Assembly: GCA_014898425.1 (NCBI GenBank)
Contig: RCSZ01000001.1
Span: 1,302,001-1,366,000 of the forward strand
Source of the DNA: Botryotinia globosa
Lineage: Eukaryota > Ascomycota > Leotiomycetes > Helotiales > Sclerotiniaceae
Direction: 5' to 3'
DNA length: 64,000 bases
The translations under genes were made by a program, and so were the position numbers. The notes under the pieces are model-generated. The model searched no databases and was not told the origin of the DNA. It was given only the letters and a program-made list of their open reading frames with translations. Positions 796 to 55,272 of the stretch are shown here, piece by piece; the first letter of the stretch is position 1; every line of letters begins with the position of its first letter.

Positions 796-2207
796 TTACA
801 GCTTCGGGGCGTAAATCGAATTCCACGCTGCTCGATCTGCAGATTCCAATGGCTGTTTTCTTCCATCCCAGAATAAAGGACATAGCTGGAACCATTTATC
901 CCGGCTACAGATTGAATGGACAGATCGTTTGTGTCCTAGATCGACATACTTTCCAATGGTAAGACCTTGGGCATTCTCGTAAGACAAGATAGTACCACCT
1001 GTTGCTTTGGGCTCACCAACTGCATTCACAGTTCGTGGATCGTCGAGGAATACATAATGGATACAGCTTGAATACCAGGCGTTAACACGCTGTGGACCAC
1101 GGAACGAAGCATCACCGACGAGAGAGTGGCGCCCGCGATCATAGTCTCCAGCGTTGTAGTGTGCACCATAGTGATCCTCCTATGATATCGTGTCAGTATG
1201 AATAGAATAACGTAGAACATGAGTCATGAAAGGAGATGTCAACTTACTTTCGCCCAGTAGAGCTCAAAGTAGGAGAATCGGGTATCGTTGAAGCGTCCAA
1301 ATAGACACAGCACGTGAGGATCAAAGTTCAACTTCCGTAGATACTCACGATGCTGATCCAATGTTCCAGTTTCGTTCCAGCCCTTAGCAACACGAGGATC
1401 ATTTTGCCACGTGTTGAAGGTCTTCAAATGTGCATCGTTCTGCCAATCAACCACTTCGAGAGAGAAATGCTCGTCCAATTCGGGAATATAGCGACTGTAG
1501 CAGATAGATCCCGGGTGTGGCTTAGGACGGCGTGTTGGGTGGTGAGTGTAAACGGCTTCTTCGGGAAATTTCATGGTGAGTTGGTAGTTCTCGGGCATGA
1601 CTGGATATTGTGCTAGAGATCCTCGGACTGGACCGTCGGTGCCATCTCCAATCACCCAAATAGGGCGAGGGCCAAGTGGTGAGGCAGCTCCTTGCCAGAA
1701 TGCACCTCGGAGAATTAACAATTCTTCGGTGGGTGATGCGGTTTTTGCTGCGCTTGAGAATCGCCATGGTTTTGGGTGCTCAATTCCCAAACCAGTAGAT
1801 AGCAACTCGCTTCGGATAACCTCTTTCTCGGAGCCACTCAAAGTCAATCGGAAATACTCTATCGTTGGATGAGCGAGATATATTGCGTGGACAACATTCC
1901 AAATTTGACCCAATGTAGGAGCATTGTTTCCTGTCCATTCGAACGTGGTTTGTGGGCTTCGACATGCTCTTCCCCAGGCGGTATTGTCAGATATAGGGGG
2001 GCACTCATCTTCGCGCCTGGTCACCAAATCAAGCCATGAAAGAGAATTGGAATGCAATGGTTGAGGTAAAGACTTTCCAGATGTGGGTTGCTGACTCTCC
2101 AATGTCAAAGTATGTTTAGCTGGTGTTGTTTCCGTGTTGGTATTTACTCGATACGTAGTCAAAAAAGGATGTGGTAATTTTACCAGAGGGTACTTGTGTG
2201 GTGCCAT
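796..2207 (-). CDS. sidF: SidF-like hydroxyornithine transacylase (siderophore biosynthesis)
   Basis: Exons are complement(1248-2207) and complement(796-1179). The 68-bp intron has a GTAAGT donor and a TAG acceptor, giving a 447-residue protein, close to the roughly 460 of Aspergillus SidF. The start at 2207 is the first ATG in the open frame. The C-terminal half is the GNAT-like AlcB/IucB acyltransferase domain used by SidF and SidL: residues around the splice site read [17 protein letters not shown], followed by a Trp/Tyr-rich end. SidF attaches an anhydromevalonyl group to N5-hydroxyornithine; SidL attaches acetyl. I favour SidF because a SidH-like hydratase and a SidD-like NRPS are next door. 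The last three residues are PKL, a permissible variant of the peroxisomal PTS1 signal, and SidF is known to be peroxisomal in Aspergillus. It is divergent from the hydratase gene, with a shared promoter of about 820 bp. The acyl specificity is inferred, not seen. Confidence 0.88.
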
Positions 2208-3029
2208 CCTCGCAAAGTTTATGATGTGAAATTTATTAAGAATGTAGAGACACGATACTGTCACGGCGGTTTATCGAAAGAGTTTGGATGTACGTAGGAC
2301 ACTAAAAACTACAACATGGTCTATACAAGTACATACAATTGTTTTATTTACATTGGTAATAATGATTTTCACCAAGGATAGTATAACACCATTCATGAGG
2401 ATTGGACCAAGGCAAAATTCCTGACTTTTTGAATTTTACGAAATATTGGTCTAGCAAAATAGAGAAACGGTCTAGATCTGCTACGGATTTTTAATGCCAG
2501 GGCAAGACGAACACAATGTCGTTGATCTACCTACCTTGGTATATAAGACCTCATACATACCCCACTTCCATACAAATAACAGGAGAATCGAGATACTCGG
2601 ACCGAGCAGGGTAATTGCAACGCTACACATTCTTTCTTATAGTAACTATTACTAAGTTGCAACTGCATCCAAGATTCCATACTTTTTCCAAGCCGATATC
2701 CCGATACCGCAAATTCATACCGCAAGCCAATTCGATTGTCCTTCAAATGGAGTCTCAATCTCAGGGATGTCGAAGCGAGAGAATGAAAGCTTTCTAGGAA
2801 AATTTACTAAACAAGAAATTAAGAACGCACTATCCATACATACATTTACCTGCCTCGAGCCTGCTAGACGGTAGGTAGATGGTGGACGCACTGATCAATA
2901 AAATGTTATAAAGTTACATGACGGGGAGCTCGTAAAACTAGTCAAAATATTATCCTTCTCTACCTGTATGAGATTATTTTGCTGTGGCTGGCAATAGTGA
3001 CCTTCTATATACATCGACCCACAGTTAAC
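2208..3029. promoter_or_regulatory. Shared divergent promoter of the SidF-like and SidH-like genes
   Basis: This 822-bp gap separates two divergently transcribed siderophore genes. I found no perfect ATCWGATAA site in it, unlike the NRPS promoter, only isolated GATAA cores (for example TTATCG near 2272). It does hold one match to the CBC:HapX bipartite pattern (listed separately). No other gene is visible. Confidence 0.6.
2337..2356 (-). promoter_or_regulatory. Candidate CBC:HapX bipartite site (CSAAT-N12-RWT)
   Basis: On the minus strand CCAAT (2352-2356) is followed after exactly 12 bases by ATT (2337-2339). This fits CSAATN12RWT, the pattern reported for the CCAAT-binding complex with the iron regulator HapX in Aspergillus. 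It sits about 130 bp upstream of the SidF-like start codon. The pattern is loose enough to occur by chance, so this is a candidate only. Confidence 0.4.
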
Positions 3030-3931
3030 ATGTCTCTCAGATCAAGATCCTTGAATTTCAAACATTTTAATGTCTCTTTTCCTCAAGAACGAATTGTGCA
3101 GGTCACATTGAATAGACCCGAGAAGCTCAATTGTATCGATCAAGCCACGAGTCGGGAGATTCAAAAAGTATGGGAGCTTTTTGATCAAGATGAAAGCCTC
3201 TGGGTTGGAATCATCACCGGTGTGGGGAGAGCCTTCTGCACTGGAGCCGATTTACAAGGTTAGAAATTTCCAATATTCAGTCACTATTCGGTATCGAATT
3301 ATACTTTTTGCACGAAAACTAATCAAAACTGGCCAGAACAGAATGGAACGAGATGAATAGAGCAGGGGTTGTCAATGACATGTCCGCACCAGGTCTTGCA
3401 GGACTCCCGCGTCGAAGTGGCAAAAAGCCTATTATTGCTGCAGTCAATGGCATATGCATGGGAGGGGGATTCGAAATGATAACCAATTGCGATGTCGTAG
3501 TCGCTGCCTCCACGGCCGTCTTTTCTCTGCCCGAAGCGAAGCGTGGGATCGTCCCTGTGGCGGGGTGTCTGCCGAGGCTAGTTCGCACCCTGGGTTTGCA
3601 ACGCACCTCGGACCTGGTTTTAACCGGTAGAAACGTAAGTGCTCAGACTCTGAGTGATTGGGGACTTATCACTCGAGTGGCAGAGTCTGGTACAGATGTT
3701 GTTGATCTTGCTGTTCAAGTTGCTCAAGATATGTGCAAGAACAGTCCTGATGCGTTGATTGTTGGTCGTATGGGTATTAGATTGGGCTGGGAAGCTGGAA
3801 GTGTAGAGGAAACTGTATCGACCTTGGCTGATGAATGGTATCCTCGTCTGGTTAAAAGTCCTAATTTTGCCGAAGGTATTCAAGCATATGTGGACAAACG
3901 ACCACCGAAGTGGGTAAACTCAAAGTTGTGA
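3030..3931 (+). CDS. sidH: SidH-like enoyl-CoA hydratase (mevalonyl-CoA hydratase), peroxisomal
   Basis: Exons are 3030-3258 and 3342-3931. The 83-bp intron runs from a GTTAGA donor to a CAG acceptor, giving 272 residues, the usual crotonase length. Splicing at the second of two nearby AGs restores the motif GADLQEWNEMN, typical of the family. The start at 3030 is the first ATG in frame. Crotonase landmarks are the early TLNRPEKLN, the oxyanion-hole segments FCTGADL (before the intron) and AAVNGICMGGGFEM, and SLPEAKRGIVP. In siderophore clusters this enzyme dehydrates mevalonyl-CoA to anhydromevalonyl-CoA, the donor for SidF. The protein ends in SKL, the canonical PTS1 signal, so peroxisomal location is very likely and agrees with SidH in Aspergillus. 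General beta-oxidation hydratase is the alternative; the neighbours argue for SidH. Confidence 0.9.
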
Positions 3932-4121
3932 GAGGGCGTGACGGCGATTCGGGATACTGCAGCGCTATTTCAGAAAGGAACAATGGTATAGATAGGTTCG
4001 AGATACGCAGACGAGACAGGCTCCTTCGATGCAGCTGTCTATTTTCATGTGTTGAGAGAAAATTTTGAGTATGTAGTGGAGACAGCCAAGGAAAAGCGGA
4101 GAATGACATGTAATTATTATC

Positions 4122-4130
4122 TTATCAGAT
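4122..4130 (-). promoter_or_regulatory. SreA/GATA iron-repressor site 1 of the NRPS promoter
   Basis: TTATCAGAT on the plus strand, i.e. ATCTGATAA on the minus strand, a perfect match to the ATCWGATAA consensus of fungal iron-responsive GATA repressors (SreA, SRE, Urbs1). Confidence 0.75.
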
Positions 4131-4252
4131 GACATGGATAAACATCTAATCAATCTTGTTAATTTATTTCGCTCAAAAATCCATACCAGAGCCGTACTAG
4201 CTGGGGCAGCTAGAATAGTCGTAACCGAGGTCATGGATGGTAATCTATTATC

Positions 4253-4261
4253 TTATCAGAT
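4253..4261 (-). promoter_or_regulatory. SreA/GATA iron-repressor site 2 of the NRPS promoter
   Basis: Perfect ATCTGATAA on the minus strand. Its flank (TATTATCTTATCAGATGA) repeats almost exactly the flank of the site at 4122, which suggests a local duplication of the element. Confidence 0.75.
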
Positions 4262-4274
4262 GAGATTGAAAAAG

Positions 4275-4283
4275 ATCTGATAA
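4275..4283 (+). promoter_or_regulatory. SreA/GATA iron-repressor site 3 of the NRPS promoter
   Basis: Perfect ATCTGATAA on the plus strand, only 13 bp after site 2 and in the opposite orientation. The two therefore form an inverted pair suited to a dimer or to a protein with two zinc fingers. Confidence 0.78.
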
Positions 4284-4309
4284 TTTCTTGGACCCCACAA
4301 CTCATCACA

Positions 4310-4318
4310 ATCTGATAA
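4310..4318 (+). promoter_or_regulatory. SreA/GATA iron-repressor site 4 of the NRPS promoter
   Basis: Perfect ATCTGATAA on the plus strand, 26 bp after site 3. Confidence 0.75.
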
Positions 4319-4392
4319 ACTACTCCGTAATTAATAAATAATAAAGCATTTTAGGAAAGAAGACCGAGCTCATCTTTTACGTCACCTGAAAT

Positions 4393-4412
4393 CCAATTCG
4401 TGTACGGTGGAT
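4393..4412 (+). promoter_or_regulatory. Candidate CBC:HapX bipartite site (CSAAT-N12-RWT)
   Basis: CCAAT at 4393-4397 is followed after 12 bases by GAT at 4410-4412, matching CSAATN12RWT. A perfect ATCTGATAA site lies 28 bp downstream. A HapX/CBC site close to a GATA iron site is the arrangement described for Aspergillus iron-regulated promoters. The match is by eye and the pattern is short. Confidence 0.5.
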
Positions 4413-4439
4413 TATGAAACTAGCTCGGGTTGCTAATTA

Positions 4440-4448
4440 TTATCAGAT
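4440..4448 (-). promoter_or_regulatory. SreA/GATA iron-repressor site 5 of the NRPS promoter
   Basis: Perfect ATCTGATAA on the minus strand, about 560 bp upstream of the NRPS start codon and 28 bp after the candidate HapX site. Confidence 0.75.
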
Positions 4449-5007
4449 CCGATGGCAATCATGGGATCAGCGGGGTGAAAATTTAATCCTGAAATATCTG
4501 CTAGTGGAATCAGTTAGGCTCGAGCTAATAGAGAAGTCCCATTATTTCATATTGTCACACAATAAGGATGGATATTTTATGTCTTATATTAACTTACTAA
4601 CCAACAGCTTCCTTAAAAGTAGGCTAAAACGATGACACTCTTCCCGGTCTGTTCTCTCCAGTTGAGGCATGGTGATTGCGTGGTTGGCGAGCTCCTATGC
4701 TCAAAATCACACTATCATGCCGCACCCACACAGGTAACGCAATATGGGTATTGATCCTGACCAGCGCAAAGATAATGGCAGAGATAGTGGCTTTGCTGCT
4801 TTACTCTCAAAGGAAGGAGGTTTGCTATCGAGATCCTTAATACCCCAGCACTCCGATTTCGAATCAAACATAATATCTCAATAAAGTGCGACCCGTGCAA
4901 ATCTTAACGGAATCGAACACACGGCTGAATTTCAGCTTTCCCTTTCAGATCTCAGATCTCAGATCACCGCCGAAACCACACGACCTTAAGTTCTGGCTGT
5001 CGAGAGG

Positions 5008-8000
5008 ATGAGTTCTGTATATATTGATGATTTACAAAGTCAACATTCACCTGGAAATGGGTTTGTTGACCTATTACCTGGCCAGCCTGACAGTGAAGGC
5101 TTTAGAGCTTTCAATGTCAAGGGTCTTTCGTGTGATCAAGCCATGACTAAAACTGGCATGAGAGAAGAACTCCTACTTGTATCCTGGCTCATCGTGCTTT
5201 TAAGGATACAGGACGAAGGTAGCCAGATATCTTATGACTGGGCTTACAAAACTCGAGAGAATAGTTTCGAGCACGAGCCCGTGAAGGGGCGCCTTTCGCT
5301 AGGCGAAGTGATGAGGACATCGCAGGATAATGTCCAGCAGGTTACTTCAGAAATTTCACAACATATCACGAAAGTTGTATCAACACAGGATGCCGCTATT
5401 TCAAGTCCTGTCTCGCTTTTACTGAGCACCAGTTCTTTATCCCAAACGTCTGAAGAGGCGATAGATGATGTGAGCAAATAATCCATTTATGTTGCCAAGT
5501 CGCTAATGGTAGTGAGCAAAGGGCGTCCTCCACCTCGAATTACGTTTTACAAACGATCTTCTCGAGATTCGACCCCTATGGCACACCGAAACCATACTAG
5601 AGTTTACAGTCACACACTTCGTTGAGAGTCTAGTTGACACCATCAAATTGTGCATTTCAACTCCCGAAGCTTCGATCGAAGAATGTCTCCGTCCAACTGC
5701 ACGTGACCTGAACGAAGTTTGGCGGTGGAACTACAAACTACCTCCAACATGCAGTTCTTGTATGCACGATATGATCTCTGAAAAAGCCAAGAAGTTGCCT
5801 GGTAAAGTGGCAATTAATTCCTGGGATGGCAGTTTAACATATGCACAGATCGATCAATATTCCAATATCCTGGCGTGCTCTCTCAGAGAAATGGGTGTCG
5901 AGCTACACGACGTCCTGCCTGTGTGTTTTGAGAAATCCAGATGGACAATAGTAGCTGTACTTGCGGTGATGAAGGTTGGAGCAACTCTGTTGATGACTGA
6001 CCCAACGCTTCCGCTTGCGCGCCTTCAAAATATGGCTGAACAAGTAAATGCAAAATTGATAGTGACTTCTCGCGCCCAGTATGATTTCTCAAAACTGATC
6101 GTTCCAAATGGAAAGATTATGGTAGTAGATGAAAACACATTTATTAAATCTTCAGATTCGTCTGCTAGTCCACCGCTAGAGGCCGTGCCACCATCTGCTT
6201 TGATGTACATAATTTTTACTTCTGGCAGCACGGGTACACCGAAAGGAGTCATGCTTTCGCACGAGACTTATACAAGCAGTGCTATTGCTCGAGCGAAAGC
6301 GGTTGGCTATACGGAGGAGTCGAGAGTTCTTGATTTCGCGGCTTATGCTTTCGATGTCAGCATTGACAGTATGCTACTGACTCTTGGAAATGGCGGGTGT
6401 CTTTGTATCCCATCAGATGAAGATCGACTGAATGACATAAATGGAGTGATGCGGAAAATGCAGGTCAATTACGCAGGTTTAACTCCTTCAGTTGCTCGAA
6501 TTTTGGACACGGATGTTATAAAATCTCTTCACGCCTTGGGTCTTGGAGGAGAGGCATCATCAGTGAGAGATGTTAATACTTGGGGTCAATATACGCGAAT
6601 TGTTATAGGCTATGGTCCTTGCGAGTGTACCATCGGATGCACAATAAATAGTGACACAGCTACCGGTAGAAACTATGTTTCTATTGGAGAAGGAAATGGG
6701 GCTGCTATCTGGATTACTCATCCCGACAATCACGAACAGCTAATGCCTGTGGGTGCTGTAGGCGAATTACTTATCGAAGGGCCTATCGTAGGGCAAGGCT
6801 ATTTGAATGATCCCGCGAAAACTTCTGCATCTTTCATCGAGAACCCGTCGTGGCTTGCTGCAGGTCATAGTGGGTATACTGGTCGTCAAGGGCGTCTTTA
6901 CAAGTCGGGAGATCTTGGAAAATATGATCCTGACGGCTCTGGAGGTATTATTTTCGTCGGGAGGAAAGACACACAAGTCAAGTTACGTGGACAACGTGTT
7001 GAGCTTGGTGAGATTGAAAGTCAGCTGATGGCTAGACTACCATCAGAGATCAGCGCAATTGCTGAGGTGATCACACCTCAGGGACTCGGAGGACAACCCA
7101 CATTGGTCGCATTTATTGGGCCACAGCAAAAGAAGGGACAAGAGGGTTCTGAAATAACGTCAGTTCAGCCTTCCGAAGAGCTAAGTCAAGCGCTGTCGAA
7201 AGCCACGTCAGAACTGACCAAGGTTCTGCCGCGATACATGATACCAACCGCATGTATACCAGTCAATTATATCCCCGTTCTGATCTCAAGCAAGATTGAT
7301 CGTAAACGACTGAGGCTATTTGGTACCACAGTGGATTTGAGGGATGTGAATGAAGAAACAGCCAAGGCCAGTACTCGAGATCTAACTGATCTTGAAAAGC
7401 TTTTGAGTCAGGCCTGGGGTCATATATTAAAGCTCGATGCAGAATCCATTCGAATCGATGACAACTTCTTTGCACTAGGTGGAGACTCTTTGGCGGCGAT
7501 GAAACTCGTTACTGTTTGTAGGGAGGAAGGCCTGGATCTTAGCGTCATCAACACTTTTGGCCACCCCACACTCTCAGCCATGGCCGAAGTCGTGCATGTC
7601 TCTAGCTCCGAGGCAGAAACGGAAATTCCAGCATTTTCAATGATTTCTCAATCCGCTGAAAGTGCTTGCCTTGAAGCATCACAGGTCTGTGGGTCCGATC
7701 AGGCAGCTATTGAGAACATTTACCCATGTACACCCACGCAAGAGTCACTATTCACATTTGCGCTTAAATCAACTGAAGTATACGTCGCTCAAAGAGTTAC
7801 ATGTATTCCATCCCATATCGAACTCGATTTCTGGAAGAAAGCATGGGAGAGTGTTGTTGCGGCCATCCCTATTCTTCGCACTCGCGTAGCCCAGCTCCAA
7901 GAACCTGGCCTTCAGCAAGTAGTACTCAAGGAAGGAATCTCCTGGAGAAGTTCAAGCAACCTAGAACAATATCTTGAGTCTGATCGAAACGAGAGAATGG

Positions 8001-11000
8001 ACCTAGGACACAGCTTAGCTCGATATGCTATTGTCAACCAGCCAGACGACGACAACCGATATATGGTCTGGACTATTCATCATGTAGTGTATGATGGATG
8101 GTCAGAGCCTTTGTTGCTGAAAGCCGTCAGCAATGCTTTGCAGGGCCAAAATATCGAAGTTCAAGCATACATGAGCGACTTTGTCAACTATGTGCGTGGT
8201 ACAGATGAAGTGGCCATGCAAGAATTCTGGCGAAATGAATTGGATGACGCTGTTGGACCCCAGTTTCCACGATTGCCTTCTAGAGACTACCTGCCAACTC
8301 CAGATGCGAATCTCGAGATCAACATAAGCCTTGACCGCAGCACTAAATCCCCCTTTACAATGGCAACATTAATTCGCGGTGCATGGGCGCTTGTTGCATC
8401 GCAGTATACCGGGAGTGACGACGTGGTATTTGGTGAGACTCTCGCAGGTCGGGACATCTCATTGAAGGGTGTCGAAAGTATTGTTGGCCCATTGATCGCA
8501 ACAGTGCCTGTTCGCATAAATTTCAGCCGATCAAGCTCCATTGAGTCTTATTTACAGAGCGTACAACAAAGTATGCTGGCCCGCATACCATATCAGCATA
8601 TGGGGATGCAAAATATTCGAAAAGTAAGCCAGGATGCTCAACATGCATGCGAGGCTGGCACAGGATTGGTCATCAATTCAGAGCCGGAATATGTGGGCAG
8701 TGACCTCGGGTTTAATTCAGGAGATGTAGAGCACGAATCTCTTCATTTCAACCCTTATCCGCTGATGCTGGCCTGTGGAATACGTAAGACCGGGTTCAGA
8801 ATCTGCGCAAATTTTGATAGCAGCCTGATTGAGATTACTCAAATGGAACGAATGCTTGCACAATTGAAGATGGCTTGTTCGCAATTGACTAAAGATCTGT
8901 CCAGAAGGATTGATGAAGTGTCATGTCTGCCAGAGGTGGAATTGAATCAAATCTGGCAGTGGAACCAAACTCCTCCATTGTCCTTTGACAAGTCTTCGAA
9001 GAGGATCCGAGCAGACGCAAGTATCAAGCAAGGGTCTACTTATCCCCCAGCGGTCGTCTCCTGGGTGTGTGATCCTCGAAATCCATCTCTACTTTCGCCT
9101 ATCGGTTGTATTGGAGAGCTCTGGCTTGAAGGGGTTTTTTCTTCGGATGAAGCTGTTGAATCTCCAGATTGGCTCGTAGCCGGAAGCCCTACATGTGGTG
9201 GTCGCACTGGCAGAGTGCAACCCACAGGTGATATGGTCCGTTTACTAGATGACAAGAGCTTAGTATTTGTTGGTCGAAAAGAAAATGTCATACCAGTTCA
9301 AGGACATGCAGTGGACATAACAGAACTTGAAGCCCACTTTGCCAAATACCTCCCACAAGCCGTACGTGCCGCCGCTGCCGTGTACCAACCATTGTCAGAT
9401 GACTCTCAACAAACCTCAAAGCAAGAGCTACTGGTCTTCGTAGAACAACAACTATCTGACGAGGGAGATGTTGAAGTTATCTCAGCCGAGCACGACCTAG
9501 TTTGCAACTCACCAGATTCACAAAGTTTCCAGGCCACTATTTGTACCAAGATCTCCTTGAGTCTTGCTTTAGCACTCAAAAAGCTGGATAAATTCGTCCA
9601 AGACTCTCTTCCTTCATACATGATGCCCTTTGCATATATCATAGTTGCCAAAATGCCAAAGGAAAAGAAGATAGTTGATCACAACTTGTTAAACCTGCTA
9701 GCTTCGAACATTCCTCGATCTGTGCTCTCCGACCTTCGCCAAGGACTTAAAGAGGTCTGGTCAAACAATTCAGCAAAACAGAATCTGACAAATTCGGAAA
9801 GTATTCTCCAGGCTGCGTGGGCAAATGTACTTGGAATTCCTTCCGAGAAGATTGATGTTGATGACAACTTTTTCCGCCTCGGAGGTGACTCTGTCATGGC
9901 GATGAAACTAGTGTCAGGTCTTCGTATGCAAGGCCATGGCCTAACAGTGGCTGATATCTTCCAACATATGCGTCTTTGCGATGCTGCTAAAGTACTCAAG
10001 GTAGACCAAGCATCAGCTAACAAGGTTCAGCCTTACAAGCCATTCTCAACATTGAATAATTCAGACATCAAGACATTCTTGTCCGAAGTTGTCCGACCAA
10101 AGCTTGCAAATCAAGATTGGACTATCCAAGATGTGTCTCCAGTGACTGACTCCCAAGCACTTGACATCAGAGGAACTATTCAATCATTGCGCACTTCCAT
10201 ACAATATACTATGTTGTACTTCGACGAAACCATTGATCGCCTGCAACTATTCCGTGCCTGCAAAGAGCTCATTAAAACCCACGCAATTCTACGCACTGTT
10301 TTCATTGAACACGAATTGAACTTCTTCCAAGTGGTTATTGATGAGTTAGATAACCCTGAAATTAGTACTCTACGAGCCGAAAACATTGAGCAATGCACCG
10401 CCGAGCTTTGCACAAGGGACATTGAATCAGGCTTCCATCTAGGATCCTCCTTTCTTAGATTACTACACGCCGAAGACAACAATGGTAAAGAATGCCTCAT
10501 TATAGGCTTGTCTCACGCGCTGTACGATGGTGTTTCCTTGCCCATGATTCTTCGAGATTTGGAAAATCTCTACAAAGGAGAAAAGGTTGTTGACTTTGAG
10601 CCTTTCTCGGCATATATGGCACGAATTTGTGATAGGAGTATACAGACAACCGCCATCAACTACTGGTGCAATCTTCTAGATGGCTCATTGTTATCTGTTT
10701 TGAAAGGAAAGTCTACGGAAACTACAGATAAAGCAATCTTCCAAACAAAATCAGTCGATATCTCCCGCCGCCCAGAAGAGATCACCACGGCAAATTTGCT
10801 TACTGCAGCATGGGCACTTGTGTTAGCGCGTCGTCTTCAGAAGCCAGATGTGACATTTGGTAGCATTACTTCCGGGCGAAACATTGACCTGGCCAGCGCG
10901 GAGAATGTGGTAGGCCCATGTTATCAATTCACACCAATCCGTGTCTCGTTTGAGTCAGAGTGGACAGCTATGGACCTGTTGAGATTTGTCCAGAAGCAAA

Positions 11001-11365
11001 GTGCCGAATCCGCAGCCCATGATTTACTCGGCTTTGATAAAATCTCCAAACAGTGCACTCAATGGTCGTCGGATTCGGAGGCACAATTCTTTGACTCCAT
11101 TGTTCACCATCAAGATTGGGACGATTTCGATACCATGCCTTTTGCTGGTAAAGAATGCAAAGTGGATATCTTAAATCCACATGGAGACGCGGCGACTCCT
11201 GTCAAAGCTGTAACTTTTATCAAAGATGGACAAATGCATGTCGGTGTAGTTGGAAGTGAAAATGATACTGTGTTTGTGGATGCAGCCCTTAATGAGCTAG
11301 CTGCTGCTATTCAAGAGTTGACTAATAGCCGATCAGAGCTGTTACTTGATGGTCAAATATTTTAG
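5008..11365 (+). CDS. sidD: SidD/NPS6-type nonribosomal peptide synthetase for an extracellular hydroxamate siderophore
   Basis: Exons are 5008-5469 and 5522-11365. The 52-bp intron (donor GTGAGC, acceptor AAG) joins two frames without a shift and gives about 2,101 residues, like SidD and NPS6. Order of parts: a short N-terminal piece without an A domain (1 to about 200); a full A domain with FTSGSTGTPKG at 386-396, YGPCE and SGDLGKYDPDGSGG further on, and the SKIDRK lysine near 745; carrier domain GGDS with Ser810; condensation domain HHVVYDG at 1007; a shortened second A domain (about 1310-1550) that lacks the FTSGSTG and YGPxE cores; carrier GGDS with Ser1611; condensation domain SHALYDG at 1818. 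A-T-C-dA-T-C is the known layout of SidD/NPS6, which joins three acyl-hydroxyornithine units into cyclic fusarinine C. The start is the first ATG after the iron-responsive promoter. Product identity is inferred. Confidence 0.92.
5470..5521 (+). other. Inferred 52-bp intron of the NRPS gene
   Basis: The first frame stops just after 5469 and the long second frame is closed by a TGA at 5513. The GTGAGC donor at 5470 and the AAG ending at 5521 are the only nearby pair that keeps the phase and avoids the stop. A CGCTAAT branch-like site lies at 5501-5507. Residues straight after the junction (GVLHLELRFTNDLLEIRPLW) resemble the end of a condensation-like fold, which supports the join. The short branch-to-acceptor distance and the AAG acceptor are slightly unusual. 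Confidence 0.7.
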
Positions 11366-12626
11366 TTTTTGAGTTAGTCATAATAACTTACATTACTCGA
11401 AACTATGAGACGGCACTTGATTTTGTACATAGGGATTTAATTTATGAGATATATGAGAAGCGAGTCCATCGTCTAATAGTATTGTTTTTGAAATATATCA
11501 TTTCAGAAGTCATCTGTACTCATTAGGAGAAACAATCAGCCTGGAGCATCGGACTTCGAGACGAGAGTTTCGACTAGAGATCTTGAGCAAGTATATTGCC
11601 CATATATTTCTACTATATTGCTGCCCGAGTACCTTGGTATGTTTGAGTTGTGCTACAACTACATAGAACGAACACTTACAGACACCACATCTTGATACTG
11701 TACATGACGTAATTTGTACGAGACTGTTATAAAAAACTCTCATTTCGACATTGTAACGTACGCGTGTTCGGATACGGTGAGCAGCAACTTAGCCACTCGA
11801 TCATTTTATGTTTCTCCATCTAAATACCAACTTTACAAGCAAGGATTCCTCGAGAATGTATTTATCCATAGTTTTCGTTTCGGATGCTGTTCGGGAACGA
11901 GACGCTTGCGCATCACCTCATTATTCACATGTAATAGCAGCACCTTTCAATTTCTACGGTGTATAACGAATAAACGTAAGTCTATGGGTCTTGAGCGGAT
12001 CGTTATGTATTCCCCTGTACTACCTGCTATATACTAGGTGAATAGTCCGTACGTAACCTTACTAGGGAGTCGGGACTTGCACGACTAGTGACTAACCTTA
12101 ACACAGCTAACTTGGCTGCGGACTCCTGGTTAGTGATAAATCAAGTGGAGTCGTTCTAATTACTAGTTGATTCCCCCCACCTTCCTTACCATTATCTAAT
12201 CTGATGATCCGATGATCTGATAAAAAAAATCAACATTTTTGGCTAGTATGGATACTTAGAATAAACATCGAAATTTTCAAAACCCATTCGAGCCACCCTC
12301 CACCGCAGAATTGCCAAGGAAGAGAGAATGCACCTGGATCTGTTTTCCAGTGCCTCCACTTGTCTGACCCCTGTAAAAATGAGAACTAATGGGCGAAAAA
12401 GTCTGAAAATTAATGTTGTCGGTACAAATATACGTACGTATAGGTGGCATTTCAAACTTGCAATAATGACTCAATTTGTGTGGAGTGATGTCGGGCTAAA
12501 TCTCATAGCAGAATTTTTATGCACCTTAATTTCTTCCCGTGTCCAACGATAAGATAAGACGAGCTCTATAATAGGCAGTCCAAGGTTGAAAGACTTTCCT
12601 TCCGACCTCAAGCAAAGTACTTCACC
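11366..12626. promoter_or_regulatory. Intergenic between NRPS and ABC transporter; ABC promoter
   Basis: No gene was found in this 1.26 kb. The last 420 bp before the ABC start carry one perfect ATCTGATAA (12215-12223) and an overlapping pair of GATAAG cores at 12548-12558, about 70 bp upstream of the start codon. This is consistent with shared iron control. Confidence 0.65.
12215..12223 (+). promoter_or_regulatory. SreA/GATA iron-repressor site of the ABC transporter promoter
   Basis: Perfect ATCTGATAA, 404 bp upstream of the ABC start codon. It is preceded by the near-miss TAATCTGATGATCC at 12197-12210. Confidence 0.7.
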
Positions 12627-15600
12627 ATGGCCGAGAAAATTACGGCCTTCCCTCGCCTACTTTTGGCTGGCAGTCCTTCTGCCGCTGATAAAGGCACGCT
12701 ATTGCTGGGTGTGATATGTTCCATCGCAGCTGGTGTTCCCTTCCCACTTATTGGAGTTCTGTTTGGTCAACTCCTCGACGATTTCAATGCAGCTACATGT
12801 AGTGAATCTTCAAGCTCCTCTTCGGACGAGGATCAGAGTGAAATCAACAGCAAGATTCTGATCATCGTATATCTGGCCATTGCTCAGTTCGTGCTCATCT
12901 ATCTGCATCTCTCGTGCTGGAGTCTTCACGGCGCGCGATTGGCCCAGAGATTGCGCGAACGTTATCTGCAGAATTTGCTTCGACAGGAACCTTCATACTT
13001 CGACAATTTACCTCCCGGAGAAGTCGCCTCACGATTGAATAGCGATGTTCAGACTATTCGCTCGGGCACTTCAGAGAAAGTGGGCATCGTCCTCTCTAGT
13101 CTCTCGTTCTTCGTCACTGCTTATATTGTAGCCTTTATCAAGGATTGGGAGCTTGCAGCAATGCTACTGTCGTTGATTCCGGCCTATTTCCTGATGTCAT
13201 TCATTGGAACTTATTATATCGAGAAATACTCTGGGCTTATGTCGGACCATGCAGCTACTGCCGCGTCGATTGCTTCGGAAGCTCTTTCTAACATCGTTGT
13301 GGTGCAAGCTTTCGGTGGTAATACTCGGTTGGAGAACAAATTCTCTACTGCTCTCAAAGCTTCGAGAACTGAAGGTTTGAAGAAGGCAACCGCGATTGGT
13401 ATACAATCCGGATTCTTGTACTTCATTGCTTATTCTGCAAACGGACTGGCATTTTGGCAAGGAAGTAAAAGCATCGCGGATTCTGTGCGCAACAACACTG
13501 CAGGTGTCACTGTGGGTGCTACGTTTACCGTCATCTTTATCCTGGTTGAAGGTAAGTTGAACTCGAATTCCACTACAGGGTTACACTAACACGATAACAG
13601 CTACCTTGCTTTTGAGTCAAGTCGCACCCTTTCTCCATCTTTTCATTGCAGCTATCGCCTCGTACAAGAAGCTACGTTCGGACATAGATCGACAACCACT
13701 CATCGATGGCACAACCGATTCGGGTCTTCGACTTCCACAGGCAGGTGGTTTCGAGTTCAAGAATGTTTCTTTCACCTATCCTTCCAGGCCCGAGATTACT
13801 GTTCTAAACAACATTACTCTATCTATCCCTGCCAATAAGAATACGGCCATTGTCGGTCTTTCGGGAAGTGGAAAATCGACTATCGCGGGTTTGGTCACGA
13901 GATTGTACGATCCTACGCATGGACAGATTCTTTTTGATGGCCACGATATTCGTGAGTGTAATACTCGTGACTTGAGAGGTTTCCTCAGTTTGGTACAACA
14001 GGAGCCCTCTCTCCTTGATCGTTCCCTCTTGGAAAATATCGCACATGGTTTGATCAACTCTAGCAATCCCAATCATGCGCATTTGAAGTCAGCACTCAAT
14101 AGTTCTGAGCTGTCAGAGCTAGCAAGCGAAGTTAGGGAGGGTAAGGATCTCATGGCTACTGTCGCATCAAGATCTCCGGAAATAATCGAGATTGTCAACT
14201 TGGTTCGTAAAGCCGCAGAGCTTGCAGATGCAGACTCTTTCATTACTGCCTTGCAACACGGATACGGAACAACTGTGGGTTCCAGTGGACGACTGATCAG
14301 TGGTGGTCAGAAGCAAAGAGTGGCCCTTGCAAGAGCTCTCGTTAAGGATCCCGCTGTTCTTATTTTGGATGAGGCAACGGCATCGTTGGATTCAAGAAGT
14401 GAACAACGTATTCAACAAGCCATCAACAAGATTGCGAGTGGCAGAACTATGATCACCATTGCTCATCGTCTTTCAACAATTACTACTGCGGATAATATCA
14501 TCGTCATGCACAAAGGTGACATCGTGGAGCAGGGAAATCATTCAGAATTGATGGCTAGGAACGGTGCATATGCCGACCTCGTCAAATTACAAGGCCTTGG
14601 ATCAACATCTGGTAAGAATGAAAGAGCTAGCATAGACAGCGTTAGCAAATCTGTAGCCACTACAGCTACTGCCGTGGATATTGAAAAGAGTAGCGTCATA
14701 AGCACCCCTGTTGGTGATGGAGAAGAACCTGAGCTCTCGGCCAAAAAGGAAACAGCTGGCGATGTCCCAGAAGAAGACCAAGAGCCCGAAACTCCCAAAA
14801 AGTCTGTATGGGCTCTCATGAAGGGTTATGCCCCAACATTGCGACCTCACTTCCTTACGATTTTCATCGCTCTTGTTGCCTCTATTGTTGTTGGTGGAGC
14901 TTTCTCCGGCGAAGCTGTAATTTTCGGAAACACCGTCGGAAGTTTGAACCCGTGCAAGAGTGCCAGCTATATTGATTCCAAGGGAAACTTTTATGGACTT
15001 CTGTTTTTCATCCTTGCCATTATCGAGTTTTTCGGAAATTTGGTCAGTTGGGCAGGATTCGGCTGGATCTCCGAGAAAATTGTTTTCAACGTGCGGGTCT
15101 TGTCATTTAGATCACTGTTCGAACAAGATCTCCAATGGCATCAATCTGAAGGTCGCACGCCAGCAGTACTCCTCTCATACATTACCAGAGATGGTAATGC
15201 TTTGGCTGGACTGAGCGGCTCCGTCATTGGCACATTGTTCTCCATTACAGTCAATCTTATCGCCGCCATCGTTTTGACCCACATCATCGCTTGGAAAATA
15301 GCATTGGTCTGTTTGGCTTTGGTACCACTTCTTCTTGGAGCTGGTCTTATGGAACTCAGAGTCCTTGGTCAATTCGAAGACAAACACGAAAATGCATACA
15401 CTCAATCTGTTGATATCGGTGTAGAAGCCATCACCTCAATCAAGATCATTGCATCTCTCTCCCTCGAGGAAGAGACATTGGCTACCTACCGAAGATCTTT
15501 GAAGGGGCCTCGCACAGAGACTTTCAAGGTTAGTGTTCTAGCCAGTCTCTGGCAGGCAACTACCTACTTCCTTGGAAATCTTGTCAATGCACTAGCATAT

Positions 15601-16614
15601 TGGTGGGGTGCCAAACAAATTTTAGCAGGAACGTATACACAGACCCAATTTTTAATTGTAGTCTTCTCTCTTCTTGTGAGCGCACTACTGTGGAGTCAAA
15701 TGTTCGCCCTCGCACCGGAACTTTCTAACGCTCGAGCTGCTATGGCAAGAATCTTGAGTCTCATCGAAATAGGATCAGACAAGATGCGAGGTAACGTGGA
15801 GGACCTTCCTTCCAAAGACATTGAAGCGACGGCCGAAACCAAATCCGTCGCTCCGTCGTCCAATCAAGGAGCTTCCAGCGTCCAGCTCCGTGATGTTCAT
15901 TTTTCATACCCTGCCAGACCAGATATGCAAGTTCTGAACGGCTTGAACATCGATATTCAACCTGGAAAGTTTTGTGCCCTGGTCGGACCATCTGGTGCTG
16001 GTAAGTCAACAATTATTTCATTGGTCGAACGATTGTACACACCACAATCTGGATCCATCATTATTGACGGCGTCGATGTAACCAAACACCGAGATGTTGC
16101 CTTCCGAGACTCCATTTCCTTGGTACCCCAAGAAAGTGTACTCTTCGAAGGAACGGTCGAGTTCAACATTGGGTTCGGTGCCAGACCTGGCCACGAAGTC
16201 ACCATGGACGAGATCATCGCCGCGTGTAAACTCGCCAATATCCACGATACCATCGCAGCCCTACCAGATGGGTATCAAACCCTCTGCGGAACAAACGGAA
16301 ATCAATTCTCAGGAGGACAGAAACAGAGATTATCCATCGCTCGAGCGCTCGTTCGGAAACCTAAATTGTTGATTCTCGACGAATCCACTAGTGCTTTAGA
16401 TGCCGAGTCGGAAAAGCTCTTGCAAGATGGATTGGAGAAGGCTGCGAGGGGAATCACAGTGATCGCTATTGCTCATCGTTTACGTACGATTAGAAAAGCG
16501 GATGTCATTTTCTTGGTGGATGCAGGACGATGTACGGATCAGGGATCGCATGAAGAGTTGTTGGAGAGGTCGGAAAGTTATAGGGCGAATGTCATGCATC
16601 AAACAGTAGTATAG
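12627..16614 (+). CDS. sitT: Full-size ABC transporter (ABCB/MDR type), SitT-like, of the siderophore cluster
   Basis: Exons are 12627-13551 and 13601-16614. The 49-bp intron has donor GTAAGT, branch CACTAAC and acceptor CAG. The product has 1,312 residues, right for a TMD-NBD-TMD-NBD full transporter. The start ATG sits in a good context (CACCATGG). Nucleotide-binding domain 1: Walker A GLSGSGKST at 394, signature SGGQ at 542, Walker B LILDEA with D565-E566. Nucleotide-binding domain 2: Walker A from G1104 (GPSGAGKST), signature SGGQ at 1212, Walker B with D1235-E1236. Both sites keep their catalytic Glu, so both halves look active. An acidic Lys/Glu linker (about 630-680) joins the halves. 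It lies straight after the NRPS in the same direction, and an ABC gene holds this place (sitT) in Aspergillus. Role is probably export or handling of the siderophore; substrate and direction are inference. Confidence 0.9.
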
Positions 16615-35410: not shown

Positions 35411-36285
35411 AAAAGTGGGGTTTACCAGATTTACCCTTCCAACCTTTGTATTATCGGTTGGCGCTGCTCTTCTCGTATTTCCCCCTCCCTGTCTTGAGGT
35501 GGAGTGGAATGTGTCGGTCGATTCGGTCCAAATTCAATTCAACAAACAAGCATCAGTGATCAGTCAGATCGGTTGGATATCTCGTGATGAAACTCGCATT
35601 ATCGGTGCTGGTGGTATCATTATCGTCATGACAATCTTGGTGCATTCCAAAGCCGTTCGTTCTCTGGATTGGTCTCTCGTCTTTCGTTTGCAAATAACTG
35701 TTTTCTCTCGACTCCATCCATCTTCAAACCCACCGGCGGATATGCTTCGATTGTCATATATCATACCAACCATCCATTATTTCCTTCGTATTCCTCCGAG
35801 CTTTCCACTGGCAAACTACAAAATAAGCCCCGGCCAAATATCCCTTCCTACATTCGTAAGTAAGTAGTAGGTAGTACATGGACTTCTGTAACGCCGCCAC
35901 CTCCTCTTGACTTTGGTCGACCAAGGAACCAACCCACAACACTCAACAGGGGTAATAAAACAATCCCTCTACTCCGTACAATCATCAGAATAACTTTGTC
36001 CACGGTTTGACCGCCATCAATGTATGTTTCCCCATATTCTTCATTATTCTAAACTTATACTTGCCCCTCATCCTCGCTTTTGTTGCAAAGCTTGGAAGAA
36101 GAAGAAGAAGAAGAGTCCAGGTGTTGGATATCTAATTTCTCCCGGGGAATTTGATTACCACGGCCTCATTCCTTCTAGCCGCTCTTGCCTGCGACGGAGA
36201 CGCCCAAGTGATTGAAGTTGGAATATTCTTCTGAATCTTTCATTTATTCTTTGGTAACAACTGACAATTCTGCTGAAATAGAATC

Positions 36286-39200
36286 ATGTCTCCTCCTAGG
36301 CGACCTGATCATAGTGAATCACATAGATCTCACCACTACCGAAATAATTCGCGGCGCGCACAAGTTCAAGATGAAGAAACTGTCTACTATACTCTCCCCC
36401 CAGCTTCGCCGACACACGAAAGCCGACCTTCGAAATCTTCCTTTGCGGATACAGCATCATCTCCAATGACTCCAACCATGTCTCGCGAACCCATCTCACC
36501 ATCGCGAAATACAACACCTGCGACTGCGATGTCGAGGAAGCGCAGTCTGATTCGCCCAGAACGCAATAGAATAGATGAAAACCATCCCAACTACCACTAT
36601 CGCCAACATGCCGCCAATATGGATACCCTACCTTCAACGACTGGCAACGATCCCATAATGGAGGATATCGAGGCGGATGCTGCCAATACAGAGACTTCGG
36701 GGCTTCGATCGTCGGGGGAAGCGGATTCAGATATTGCGCCACCCGCGAGACGAACCACACGCGGTCATGGAGCTGGACCAGAAGATCTCGCCTCGAATGA
36801 AAAGGCTGGTCTTGCTTCAAAGTCTCGAGGGGGAAATAAACTGAAGAGGGAGAGGGTGCCAAAAATGTCCAAGGAGGAGAAGGAGAGGCAAAAGGCCCTC
36901 GACACTGTGAAACCGCCGAGTCTGTGGAATGTTTATTGCGCCATTGTAACCTTCTGGTGTCCAGGGTTTGTTCTCAAGTGTTTCGGCTTCCGTTCGAAAG
37001 CCCAACAAAGAGCTTGGAGAGAAAAGATGGGATTGATCAGCATCATTCTCTCCATCATGGCATTTGTGGGATTCTTGACATTTGGATTTACCGCAACAGT
37101 GTGTGGGACGGGTTCAGGTCTACGATTACAAGTCAACCATGTGGATTCCGGATATATGATCTTTCACGGTAACGCGTATGATCTTTCAAAATCAGAGCAT
37201 CCCGCTGCAACAGGCATCACAAATGGGGCAAACGTTCTGTATGATTTACCCCAGAAGTATGGGGGGATGGACGGAAGTTTCTTGTTCCAGAATGTCAATG
37301 GCAAATGCAAAGGCTTAATCACTTTAGCTGATGGATCGGACGTTCCAACCAATTCTGACAAAGATCTTGCATGGTACTTCCCTTGCCATGCATTCAATCA
37401 AGATGGTTCAAGCTCGCCAAATGAGACAGTGGGTGCCTATTTTGGGTACGCGTGCCATTTGCAGGCCGGTGCTCGCTCATCGTTTTACGCACTCAATAGT
37501 GCTGGAGCTGTCTATTTCACCTGGGATGACATCAAGAATTCCTCGAGGAACCTGATGGTTTACTCTGGCAATGTTCTTGATCTAGACCTACTGAAATGGT
37601 TCAACACTACCCAGGTTTCCGTTCCATCCAGGTTCACCACCCTTGCCGATAAGTCTTCCGCTGCCAACGCCGCTGTACGCGGTAGGGATGTCACACACGC
37701 CTTCCAATCTTCAGAGGACAAGAAGATTGCTCAGTGTTTTGAGCAAATCCTTAAAGTTGGAAGTGTCGATACCGAAACTGTTGGGTGCATCGCTTCCAAA
37801 GTAGTCCTTTACGTCTCCTTGGCGTTTATTCTTGCCATTGTTCTGGTCAAGTTCGTCTTGGCTTTGATCTTCCAATGGTTCATTGCCTCGAAATACGCCG
37901 CATCGAAGACTTCGCAATCATCTGACCCCAAGAAGCGTCAGCAACAAATCGAGGAATGGTCCGATGATATCTACCGGGCTCCTCCAAGATTGGCTGGCGA
38001 TATTGGTAGCTCCGCTGCGGGATCTGGATCCGACAAGACAAGCAAACGAACTAGTGTGTTTTTGCCAACGACATCTCGTTTCTCGAATCCTTATGCCGCT
38101 GCTGATCGATCCTCTCGCATTGGACGCCCTCAACCTACAACCATGGCCAGTCAAGCCTCAACAGCTCAGCTGATTCCCCCAAATCCCATGTTCCGAAATC
38201 AAAACAGTAGCCGAAACAGCCTTTTGCGAACGGATAATTCAAATGATCTCGATGGGTCCGGTCCCACCAGCTTCATTCACGATCTAGTGGTTCCTCAGCC
38301 ACCCAAAGAATGGGAACCATACGGATTCCCTCTGGCCCATGCAATCCTTCTTGTGACTGCCTATTCTGAAGGTGAACTTGGTATTCGCACGACCCTCGAC
38401 TCTATCGCTACGACTGATTACCCCAATAGTCATAAAACTATTCTGGTTATTTGTGATGGTATTATCAAGGGTGAAGGCGAACCAAAGTCAACACCAGAAG
38501 TGGTTCTTGGCATGATGAAAGATTTTGTCACTCCTGTTGAAGAAGTTCCTGCATTCTCTTACGTAGCGGTCGAAAGAGGATCGAAGAGACATAACATGGC
38601 CAAAGTGTACGCTGGATTCTACGATTACGGTGCTGATTCTACTATCAACGTCAATAGACAACTCCGAGTTCCAATGGTGTGCATTGTAAAGTGTGGTACT
38701 CCGGATGAAGCTACACACCGCAAACCTGGAAACAGAGGCAAGCGCGACAGTCAAATTATCTTGATGTCTTTCTTGCAGAAAGTCATGTTTGATGAACGTA
38801 TGACGGAACTCGAGTTTGAGATCTTTAATGGATTCTATCAAATCAGCGGCATCTTCCCGGATATGTATGAGGTTGTTCTTATGGTTGACGCAGATACAAA
38901 GGTTTTCCCAGACAGTTTGACACACATGGTATCGGCAATGGTTAAAGATCCTGAAATTATGGGGCTTTGCGGAGAGACAAAGATTGCGAACAAACGTGCC
39001 AGCTTCACAACCGCAATACAAGTTTTCGAATACTTTATTTCTCATCACTCGGTCAAATCTTTCGAATCGATTTTCGGTGGTGTGACTTGCCTTCCTGGTT
39101 GTTTCTCCATGTATAGAATCAAGGCTCCAAAGGGTGGCAACTATTGGGTTCCTATTTTGGCCAACCCTGACGTCGTCGAACATTACTCCGATAACGTAGT

Positions 39201-39994
39201 AGACACGCTACACAAGAAGAACTTGCTACTTTTGGGAGAGGATCGATACCTCTCAACACTCATGCTTCGAACATTCCCCAAGCGTAAACAAGTGTTTGTC
39301 CCACAAGCTGTTTGCAAAACTCAAGTACCAGACTCTCTCTGGGTTCTCATGTCACAGAGACGTAGATGGATCAACAGTACCGTTCACAATCTGATGGAAT
39401 TGGTTCTGGTCAGAGATCTTTGTGGTACTTTCTGCTTCAGTATGCAGTTTGTCGTCTTTATCGATCTCGTCAGTACTTTGGTTCTTCCAGCCGCTATTGC
39501 ATTCACCATTTACGTCGGTAAGTAAATCATTCTTCATGAAATTGTAACATCTTGCTAACTATTTTCTAGTCATCATTTCGATTGTTCGTAGCCCTGTCCA
39601 AATCATTCCGCTCGTACTCTTAGGATTGATCCTTGGTCTACCAGCAGTTTTGATTGTTATAACAGCTCATCGTTGGGTCTATGTTCTTTGGATGATGATT
39701 TATCTTGTCTCATTGCCAATTTGGAATTTCTTACTTCCAGCATACGCCTTTTGGAAATTTGATGATTTCTCCTGGGGAGATACTCGTAAGACGGCTGGTG
39801 AAAAGACTAAGAAGGCGGGTATTGAATACGAGGGAGAATTCGATAGTTCAAAGATTACTATGAAGCGATGGAAGGAGTTTGAGAGAGAAAGAATCTTGAG
39901 GAGCAACCCAAGTTGGGTTCATTCAAATACTTCGTTGAATAAGGAGAATCATCGATGGCAGCAACATCAATATGATGATTACGCGGATAGTTGA
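36286..39994 (+). CDS. Class IV chitin synthase (division 2, Chs3-like)
   Basis: Exons are 36286-39517 and 39570-39994 (52-bp intron, donor GTAAGT, branch TGCTAAC, acceptor CTAG), giving 1,218 residues, typical of class IV enzymes. There is no myosin motor, which rules out classes V and VII. Residues 1-210 are a disordered, Arg/Ser/Pro-rich cytosolic head ending in a Lys/Arg-rich patch. Then come two membrane segments (about 217-235, 249-267), a cytochrome b5-like segment ([15 protein letters not shown] and on), a further hydrophobic region at about 505-532, the glycosyltransferase domain with VDADT (D868-D870), GEDR (E985-R987) and QRRRW (Q1024-W1028), and a C-terminal membrane cluster. All catalytic motifs of the chitin synthase family are intact. 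It polymerises UDP-GlcNAc into cell-wall chitin at the plasma membrane and would be the client of the Skt5/Chs4-like protein encoded next door. Confidence 0.95.
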
Positions 39995-54890: not shown

Positions 54891-55272
54891 ATTTGGAGGG
54901 GTGATGGACTTTCAAACCTCGACGAGATGTTTCGCGATCCAAAAAATTGTATGGAGGTCCGCAAAGTCCGCAATTTTGTGCGTGCCTTAGGCTTCAGTAT
55001 TTCTTTGATGAACGCATGGATGCTCAGCTGAAGAGGAATCTTGATGAAGCGGCCAACTCCGCTGTCCTATCATTGTTGATGCGGGGAGATCTAAAACATT
55101 TCATTGCATTATATGTCACAATATCATATTCACTAGTTGCGTTGTTGAGAATGAACAGTCAAATTAGTCTCTGGAAGTCTTTTACTTCGATTTTACATCC
55201 CCCTTGATTCCACCGGAAGTGAGATGTGTCAGTAAGTTTCTGTGTTGTTTGAGCTACCTAAGTATATATAAC
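54891..55272. promoter_or_regulatory. Divergent promoter between the mitoribosomal and MoCo sulfurase genes
   Basis: This 382-bp gap separates two start codons that point away from each other. A donor-like TCAGTAAGT at 55228-55236 upstream of the sulfurase start could belong to a leader intron ending near CTAAG at 55257-55261. No other feature is recognised. Confidence 0.5.

Follow-up and report, generated by a model that had tools for sequence, protein, structure and literature searches.

What does an array of five identical GATA-type sites do in front of a fungal gene for siderophore synthesis? The question is raised by positions 4122-4448 of a 64,000-nucleotide stretch of Botryotinia globosa DNA (the window, hereafter), where a first-pass annotation made from the letters alone had described five perfect SreA-type sites in the promoter of a nonribosomal peptide synthetase (NRPS) gene. 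We put the probability that the array is an SreA operator through which sidD is repressed by iron at roughly 0.85, and we infer both the binding and the repression. On the best reading the array belongs to a regulon that has been well described, and is ordinary but for its unusually large number of sites. Neither the signal nor its use is new; what is unusual is the presence of five exact copies in 327 bp, together with an adjacent sidF/sidH promoter that has no site at all. Among the literature matches listed, and as judged by title and the start of the abstract, none dealt with SreA sites in this plant-pathogenic group. At the sequence level, the locus is a clean case for the question of whether repression by iron deepens with the number of SreA sites. 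Further candidates for the iron regulon of this genome came out of the analysis, including a FAD/NAD reductase gene with six upstream sites.

Five sites between two siderophore genes

The gene behind the array, taken in the first pass for an NRPS gene, turned out to be a siderophore NRPS gene of the SidD/NPS6 type. Its product carries PF24895 SIDD_N in a profile search, matches a Botryotinia convoluta protein at 95% identity, and also has adenylation, condensation and carrier domains; its neighbours are of the sidF and sidH types. The features around the array are the following.

1239..2206, minus strand: 5' exon of a sidF-type GNAT acyltransferase gene (ATG placed by eye at 2206; more coding sequence below 1239)
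3030..3931, plus strand: sidH-type enoyl-CoA hydratase gene (start placed by eye; domain on frame 3323-3931)
4122..4130, minus strand: SreA-type site 1, ATCTGATAA, inside the 18-bp double-GATA element 4115-4132
4253..4261, minus strand: SreA-type site 2, inside the identical 18-bp element 4246-4263
4275..4283, plus strand: SreA-type site 3 (motif match)
4310..4318, plus strand: SreA-type site 4 (motif match)
4393..4412, plus strand: CCAAT-N12-GAT between sites 4 and 5, fitting the HapX motif CSAATN12RWT
4440..4448, minus strand: SreA-type site 5 (motif match)
5008..11365, plus strand: siderophore NRPS gene of the sidD/NPS6 type (frames 4990-5481 and 5516-11365 with a presumed intron; ATG placed by eye at 5008)
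12190..12207, minus strand: third copy of the 18-bp double-GATA element, TCATCAGATTAGATAATG (3 mismatches to TATTATCTTATCAGATGA; SreA core degenerate)
12215..12223, plus strand: SreA-type site in the ABC transporter promoter, the sixth in the window (motif match)
12627..16614, plus strand: gene for the cluster's ABC transporter (frames 12558-13589 and 13561-16614; ATG 12627)

A motif search of the 64-kb window recovered every one of the five ATCTGATAA copies that had been reported in mixed orientation, at 4122(-), 4253(-), 4275(+), 4310(+) and 4440(-). Together they span 327 bp (4122-4448) of the 1,076-bp gap (3932-5008) that separates the sidH-type from the sidD-type (NPS6) gene. Their starts lie 568-886 bp before the sidD ATG (5008), which places five exact ATCWGATAA matches within 2 kb upstream of sidD. 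The start-to-start distances among the five, inspected by eye, have no common helical phase. The sixth site of the window, 12215(+) before the ABC transporter gene, was absent from the first-pass annotation.

On the other side of the sidH-type gene, the common promoter of sidF and sidH has no SreA-type site in 2265-3029 even when one mismatch is allowed, and no exact one in 2207-2264. The stretch 2265-3029 does hold one CSAAT-N12-RWT match, at 2337(-). This HapX motif, published as CSAATN12RWT (PMC10602907), has 31 matches in the 64 kb, about 0.5 per kb, and the match at 4393-4412 is weak evidence alone because about that many are expected. It fits the consensus, but since chance alone would give such a fit once in about 2 kb, it does not by itself show a HapX site within the array.

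Two genes elsewhere in the window may be mentioned in passing. One, at 36277-39525, is a chitin synthase gene (PF03142). The other, at 55168-57762, pairs an aminotransferase class V domain with a MOSC domain, as molybdenum cofactor sulfurases do.

More sites than chance provides

How surprising are five sites in such a gap? We shuffled the gap 3932-5008 with conservation of dinucleotides 5000 times; 4721 shuffles had no site, 259 had one, 20 had two and none had more than two. The sites in the sidD promoter are thus above the random expectation. Genome-wide, the count of ATCWGATAA that the first-pass annotation had proposed gave 1310 occurrences in 45.68 Mb, or 1.8 per 64 kb, against 675 for the reversed pattern used as a control. 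At this density and with random placing, one expects 4e-7 sites per genome that have four or more others within 327 bp, and 2e-4 when the duplicated pair described below is counted once. Presumably, most of the 1310 sites lie away from iron genes.

At the scale of the window the picture is different. Its six ATCWGATAA sites compare with a shuffle mean of 2.71, and 8 of 100 shuffles reach at least six. The earlier chance figure of about one or fewer per window was slightly low, given this mean and the genome density of 1.8. Six sites in the window are therefore unremarkable, and it is the five in 327 bp that are remarkable. The ordinary window count is what can be said for a chance cluster, an explanation that we find hardly credible: none of the 5000 gap shuffles exceeds two sites, only 4e-7 such clusters are expected per genome, and the array precedes exactly the type of gene for which the motif is known (PMC2610380).

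A scan for three sites in 2 kb, which covered the first 100 listed sites up to C1:4,007,548, found no other such stretch in the first 4.0 Mb of contig C1. At least one other array exists in the genome, with six sites on contig C16 (C16:56610-57930).

Origin of the copies and the extended element

Part of the array probably arose through local duplication. Sites 1 and 2 lie within an identical 18-mer, TATTATCTTATCAGATGA, that starts at 4115 and at 4246, and site 5 has 11 bp in common with site 1. The first-pass observation that the flanks of the first two copies are alike is thus borne out to the letter. The local duplication that was proposed from it is supported for copies 1 and 2. Copies 3 and 4 have different flanks and an orientation opposite to that of 1, 2 and 5.

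One might go further and see in the array mainly a side effect of local duplication within A+T-rich intergenic DNA, with one or two sites at work and the rest idle. This is compatible with an SreA array, and the 18 bp shared by copies 1 and 2 and the 11 bp shared by copies 5 and 1 speak in its favour. The flanks and orientation of copies 3 and 4 argue against it, and so do the failure to find a second copy of 4090-4460 in the genome and the absence of any tandem repeat across the array. We consider it unlikely. The same two observations, single copy and no tandem repeat over the array, led us to reject an origin from a transposon or satellite. The two short tandem repeats that we found in the gap lie elsewhere (4766-4791 and 4945-4965). 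A search of a plasmid collection with the intergenic stretch returned no match, as expected for fungal DNA.

The extended 18-bp double-GATA element is the one new detail of the case. Written as the pattern TCATCWGATWAGATAATR, it has three matches without mismatch in the genome, two in the sidD promoter and one in the ABC transporter promoter, these being the three cluster copies from which the pattern itself was derived. Allowing up to two mismatches raises the number to 51 (3 exact, 3 that differ at one position and 45 at two), whereas the reversed control gives 22. The shorter extension ATCWGATAAGAT is found genome-wide at 42 of the 1310 sites (3.2%), against 14 of 675 (2.1%) in the reversed control. 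In iron promoters besides sidD, it occurs at 4 of 15 sites (hypergeometric p 0.0008), a set that is biased because the sidC site and the loci on contig C5 surfaced through the motif search. Without these the count is 1 of 10, which gives no support for wider enrichment, and we set aside the extension as a general feature of iron promoters and keep it as a lead only.

One may speculate that TCATCWGATWAGATAATR is a lineage-specific form of the SreA operator, with a second GATA core fused behind the site, that it would be bound by the two-fingered repressor distinctly, more strongly or cooperatively and would mark the extracellular siderophore cluster, and that the sidD array may in that case act at a distance on sidF/sidH as well. 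We see this as a long shot.

SreA or another GATA factor

Does the genome encode the repressor to which we ascribe the array? A genome-wide profile search for PF00320 gave seven matches at six places, and a single frame, at C15:962714-963268, contains a pair. Between its two GATA fingers this protein reads C-x5-C-x8-C-x2-C. The Sre family is described as having a 32-residue segment with four invariant cysteines (PMC10938068). With two fingers and an intervening region of four cysteines, C15:962714-963268 is by its sequence an SreA-type gene. The HapX motif for binding to the CCAAT complex has one match, at C8:1283665, in a frame where a basic region and cysteine-rich stretches can be recognised by eye.

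Might the sites serve another GATA factor, of the nitrogen AreA type or the light WC type, and so tie siderophore synthesis to nitrogen or light? Five of the six places with GATA fingers lie outside the sreA-type gene. Moreover, HGATAR in general is in excess in the gap, with 12 matches against a shuffle mean of 5.4, a number reached by 11 of 2000 shuffles. The title of PMC6788720 also names an FgAreA-HapX cascade in the iron homeostasis of Fusarium graminearum. Yet, among these 12 matches the ATC extension is present at each of the five TGATAA cores and at none of the other seven matches, which points to SreA rather than to a general GATA factor. The ftrA/fetC and sidA promoters contain this extended site, too. 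We therefore regard another GATA factor as quite improbable.

Under the SreA reading, the array would work as follows. When iron is sufficient, SreA, with its two zinc fingers and the cysteine-rich region between them, would bind the partly palindromic ATCTGATAA sites and repress sidD. When iron is scarce, SreA would release them, and activators, probably HapX with the CCAAT-binding complex, would drive transcription of sidD. Several sites might raise the occupancy by SreA and hence make repression deeper or sharper.

The site in other iron promoters

If SreA is the factor, the site should recur. We selected ten promoters by protein family or by adjacency to a gene so identified; six have the exact site and four do not. 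The counts are five for sidD, one for the ABC transporter, three for ftrA/fetC, three for sidA, one for sidC and three for a weak second PF13434 gene. The ftrA/fetC sites are on contig C16, between an FTR1 gene and the divergently oriented exon of a multicopper oxidase. Those of sidA (C19:410646, 410901 and 410983) lie 1.6-2.0 kb before the ATG as read, in a stretch overlapped by small ORFs. The sidC-type NRPS gene has its site at C19:417178, 1.4 kb before the frame, and was not a fully blind choice since this site was already in the two-mismatch list for TCATCWGATWAGATAATR. We name it sidC because it adjoins sidA, as NRPS2 does in PMC6941272. The weak second PF13434 gene, on contig C12, is short and divergent (L076:2450-3355) and has its three ATCTGATAA sites 344-590 bp ahead of the frame, with a CCAAT-N12-GAT match (L076:3686) overlapping one of the three.

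The search for PF13434 gave 15 matches in all, two of them at sidA and one at the C12 gene, and the other 12 (at most 36.8 bits) were taken as other oxidoreductases. Three of these 12 (L049-L051) were inspected: two have no site and L051 has one, about 1.4 kb from the match.

Besides sidF/sidH, the promoters without the exact site are those of a sidL-type gene (the second PF13523 gene; about 2.9 kb upstream searched), of hapX (about 3 kb) and of sreA itself, where none lies within about 2.1 kb and one lies about 2.2 kb upstream of the frame. A uniform SreA model is seriously weakened by these four promoters. What stands of the first-pass attribution to SreA is that the motif matches the published one, that an SreA-type gene is present and that the site recurs; what weakens it in its simple form is the absence of the site at sidF/sidH, sidL, hapX and, within about 2 kb, sreA.

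Known systems

In Aspergillus fumigatus, ATCWGATAA is enriched upstream of SreA-regulated genes, sidD among them (PMC2610380), and altering the motif at ftrA abolishes iron repression (PMC10294635). The motif and the gene types of this regulon (sidA, sidC, sidD, sidF, ftrA and fetC; both papers) are those found here. There are differences as well. The A. fumigatus regulon includes sidF, whereas sidF/sidH has no site in our window. At A. fumigatus ftrA an extra GATAA precedes the motif on the other strand, whereas here two of the sites are followed immediately by GATAA on the same strand. In the consulted parts of these two papers there is no mention of five exact copies within 327 bp.

In F. 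graminearum, ChIP-qPCR placed FgSreA on promoter regions that contain ATCWGATA, and the genes that it inhibits include FgSIDD (PMC10602907). In Histoplasma capsulatum, the Sre1 site (G/A)ATC(T/A)GATAA is reported to occur at least once in the 5' region of every gene of a siderophore cluster that includes NPS1 and ABC1 (PMC2275787). Siderophore-cluster promoters have the same site in both fungi, but H. capsulatum has it at all cluster genes whereas here sidD has five, the ABC transporter gene one and sidF/sidH none. Such gaps have a precedent, since MIRB and MIRC of Blastomyces lack the longer motif (PMC2848559). At NPS6 promoters, the same repressor family is known from Alternaria (SreA, cited within PMC10938068) and from Curvularia (SreC), the latter with an element given as ATGWGATAW, unlike the ATCWGATAA found here (PMC10938068). 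The extracellular siderophore cluster 2_4 of Sclerotinia sclerotiorum, with the B. cinerea NRPS6 homologue, has the same four gene types, i.e. NRPS6, ABC transporter, enoyl-CoA hydratase and GNAT (PMC6941272). The words promoter, GATA and SreA are absent from the main text of that paper.

Close pairs of sites elsewhere in the genome

Close pairs of sites, with a gap of at most 30 bp, were searched for genome-wide and blind to genes in two of the three possible arrangements (same orientation, and inverted other than ATCWGATAA then TTATCWGAT). Same-orientation pairs gave 10 matches at 7 loci and inverted pairs 5 places, each of them appearing once on either strand, making 11 loci together, against 2 matches for the reversed pattern in each search. 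Three loci were set aside by eye as short tandem repeats (C5:1583494, C22:133279 and C23:112470). The eight others are sidD, ftrA/fetC, an NRPS gene on contig C13, a sucrase/ferredoxin-like gene on C2, a reductase gene on C16, an ankyrin gene on C17 and ORFs on C1 and C6. Half of them (the C16 FAD/NAD reductase, the C17 ankyrin gene and the C1 and C6 ORFs) are beside genes without a known role in iron metabolism, and the C1 and C6 ORFs have no Pfam match.

The reductase locus is the array on C16 mentioned above. Its six ATCWGATAA sites (C16:56610-57930; L074:4610-5930) fall within 1.3 kb, 1.3-2.6 kb upstream of a FAD/NAD-binding reductase frame. This frame is conserved and 657 aa long and carries CCGGGCC near the N-terminus; a B. 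cinerea relative bears the name FAD-binding protein C12C2.03c. The pair on C2 (C2:2174121-2174150) lies before the sucrase/ferredoxin-like gene (PF06999).

On C13, four sites precede the NRPS gene (C13:1395674-1396439), two of them in the form ATCTGATAAGAT. The best local alignments of this NRPS piece show 33% identity with the sidC-type protein and 26% with sidD. It may be a second siderophore NRPS and may belong to the ferrichrome-type NRPSs that PMC9920419 lists for B. cinerea.

Four ATCAGATAA sites surround two genes on C5 (C5:2464648-2473648), one MFS transporter-like and the other for a DUF1749 hydrolase. We take DUF1749 to be the domain of the siderophore hydrolase SidJ.
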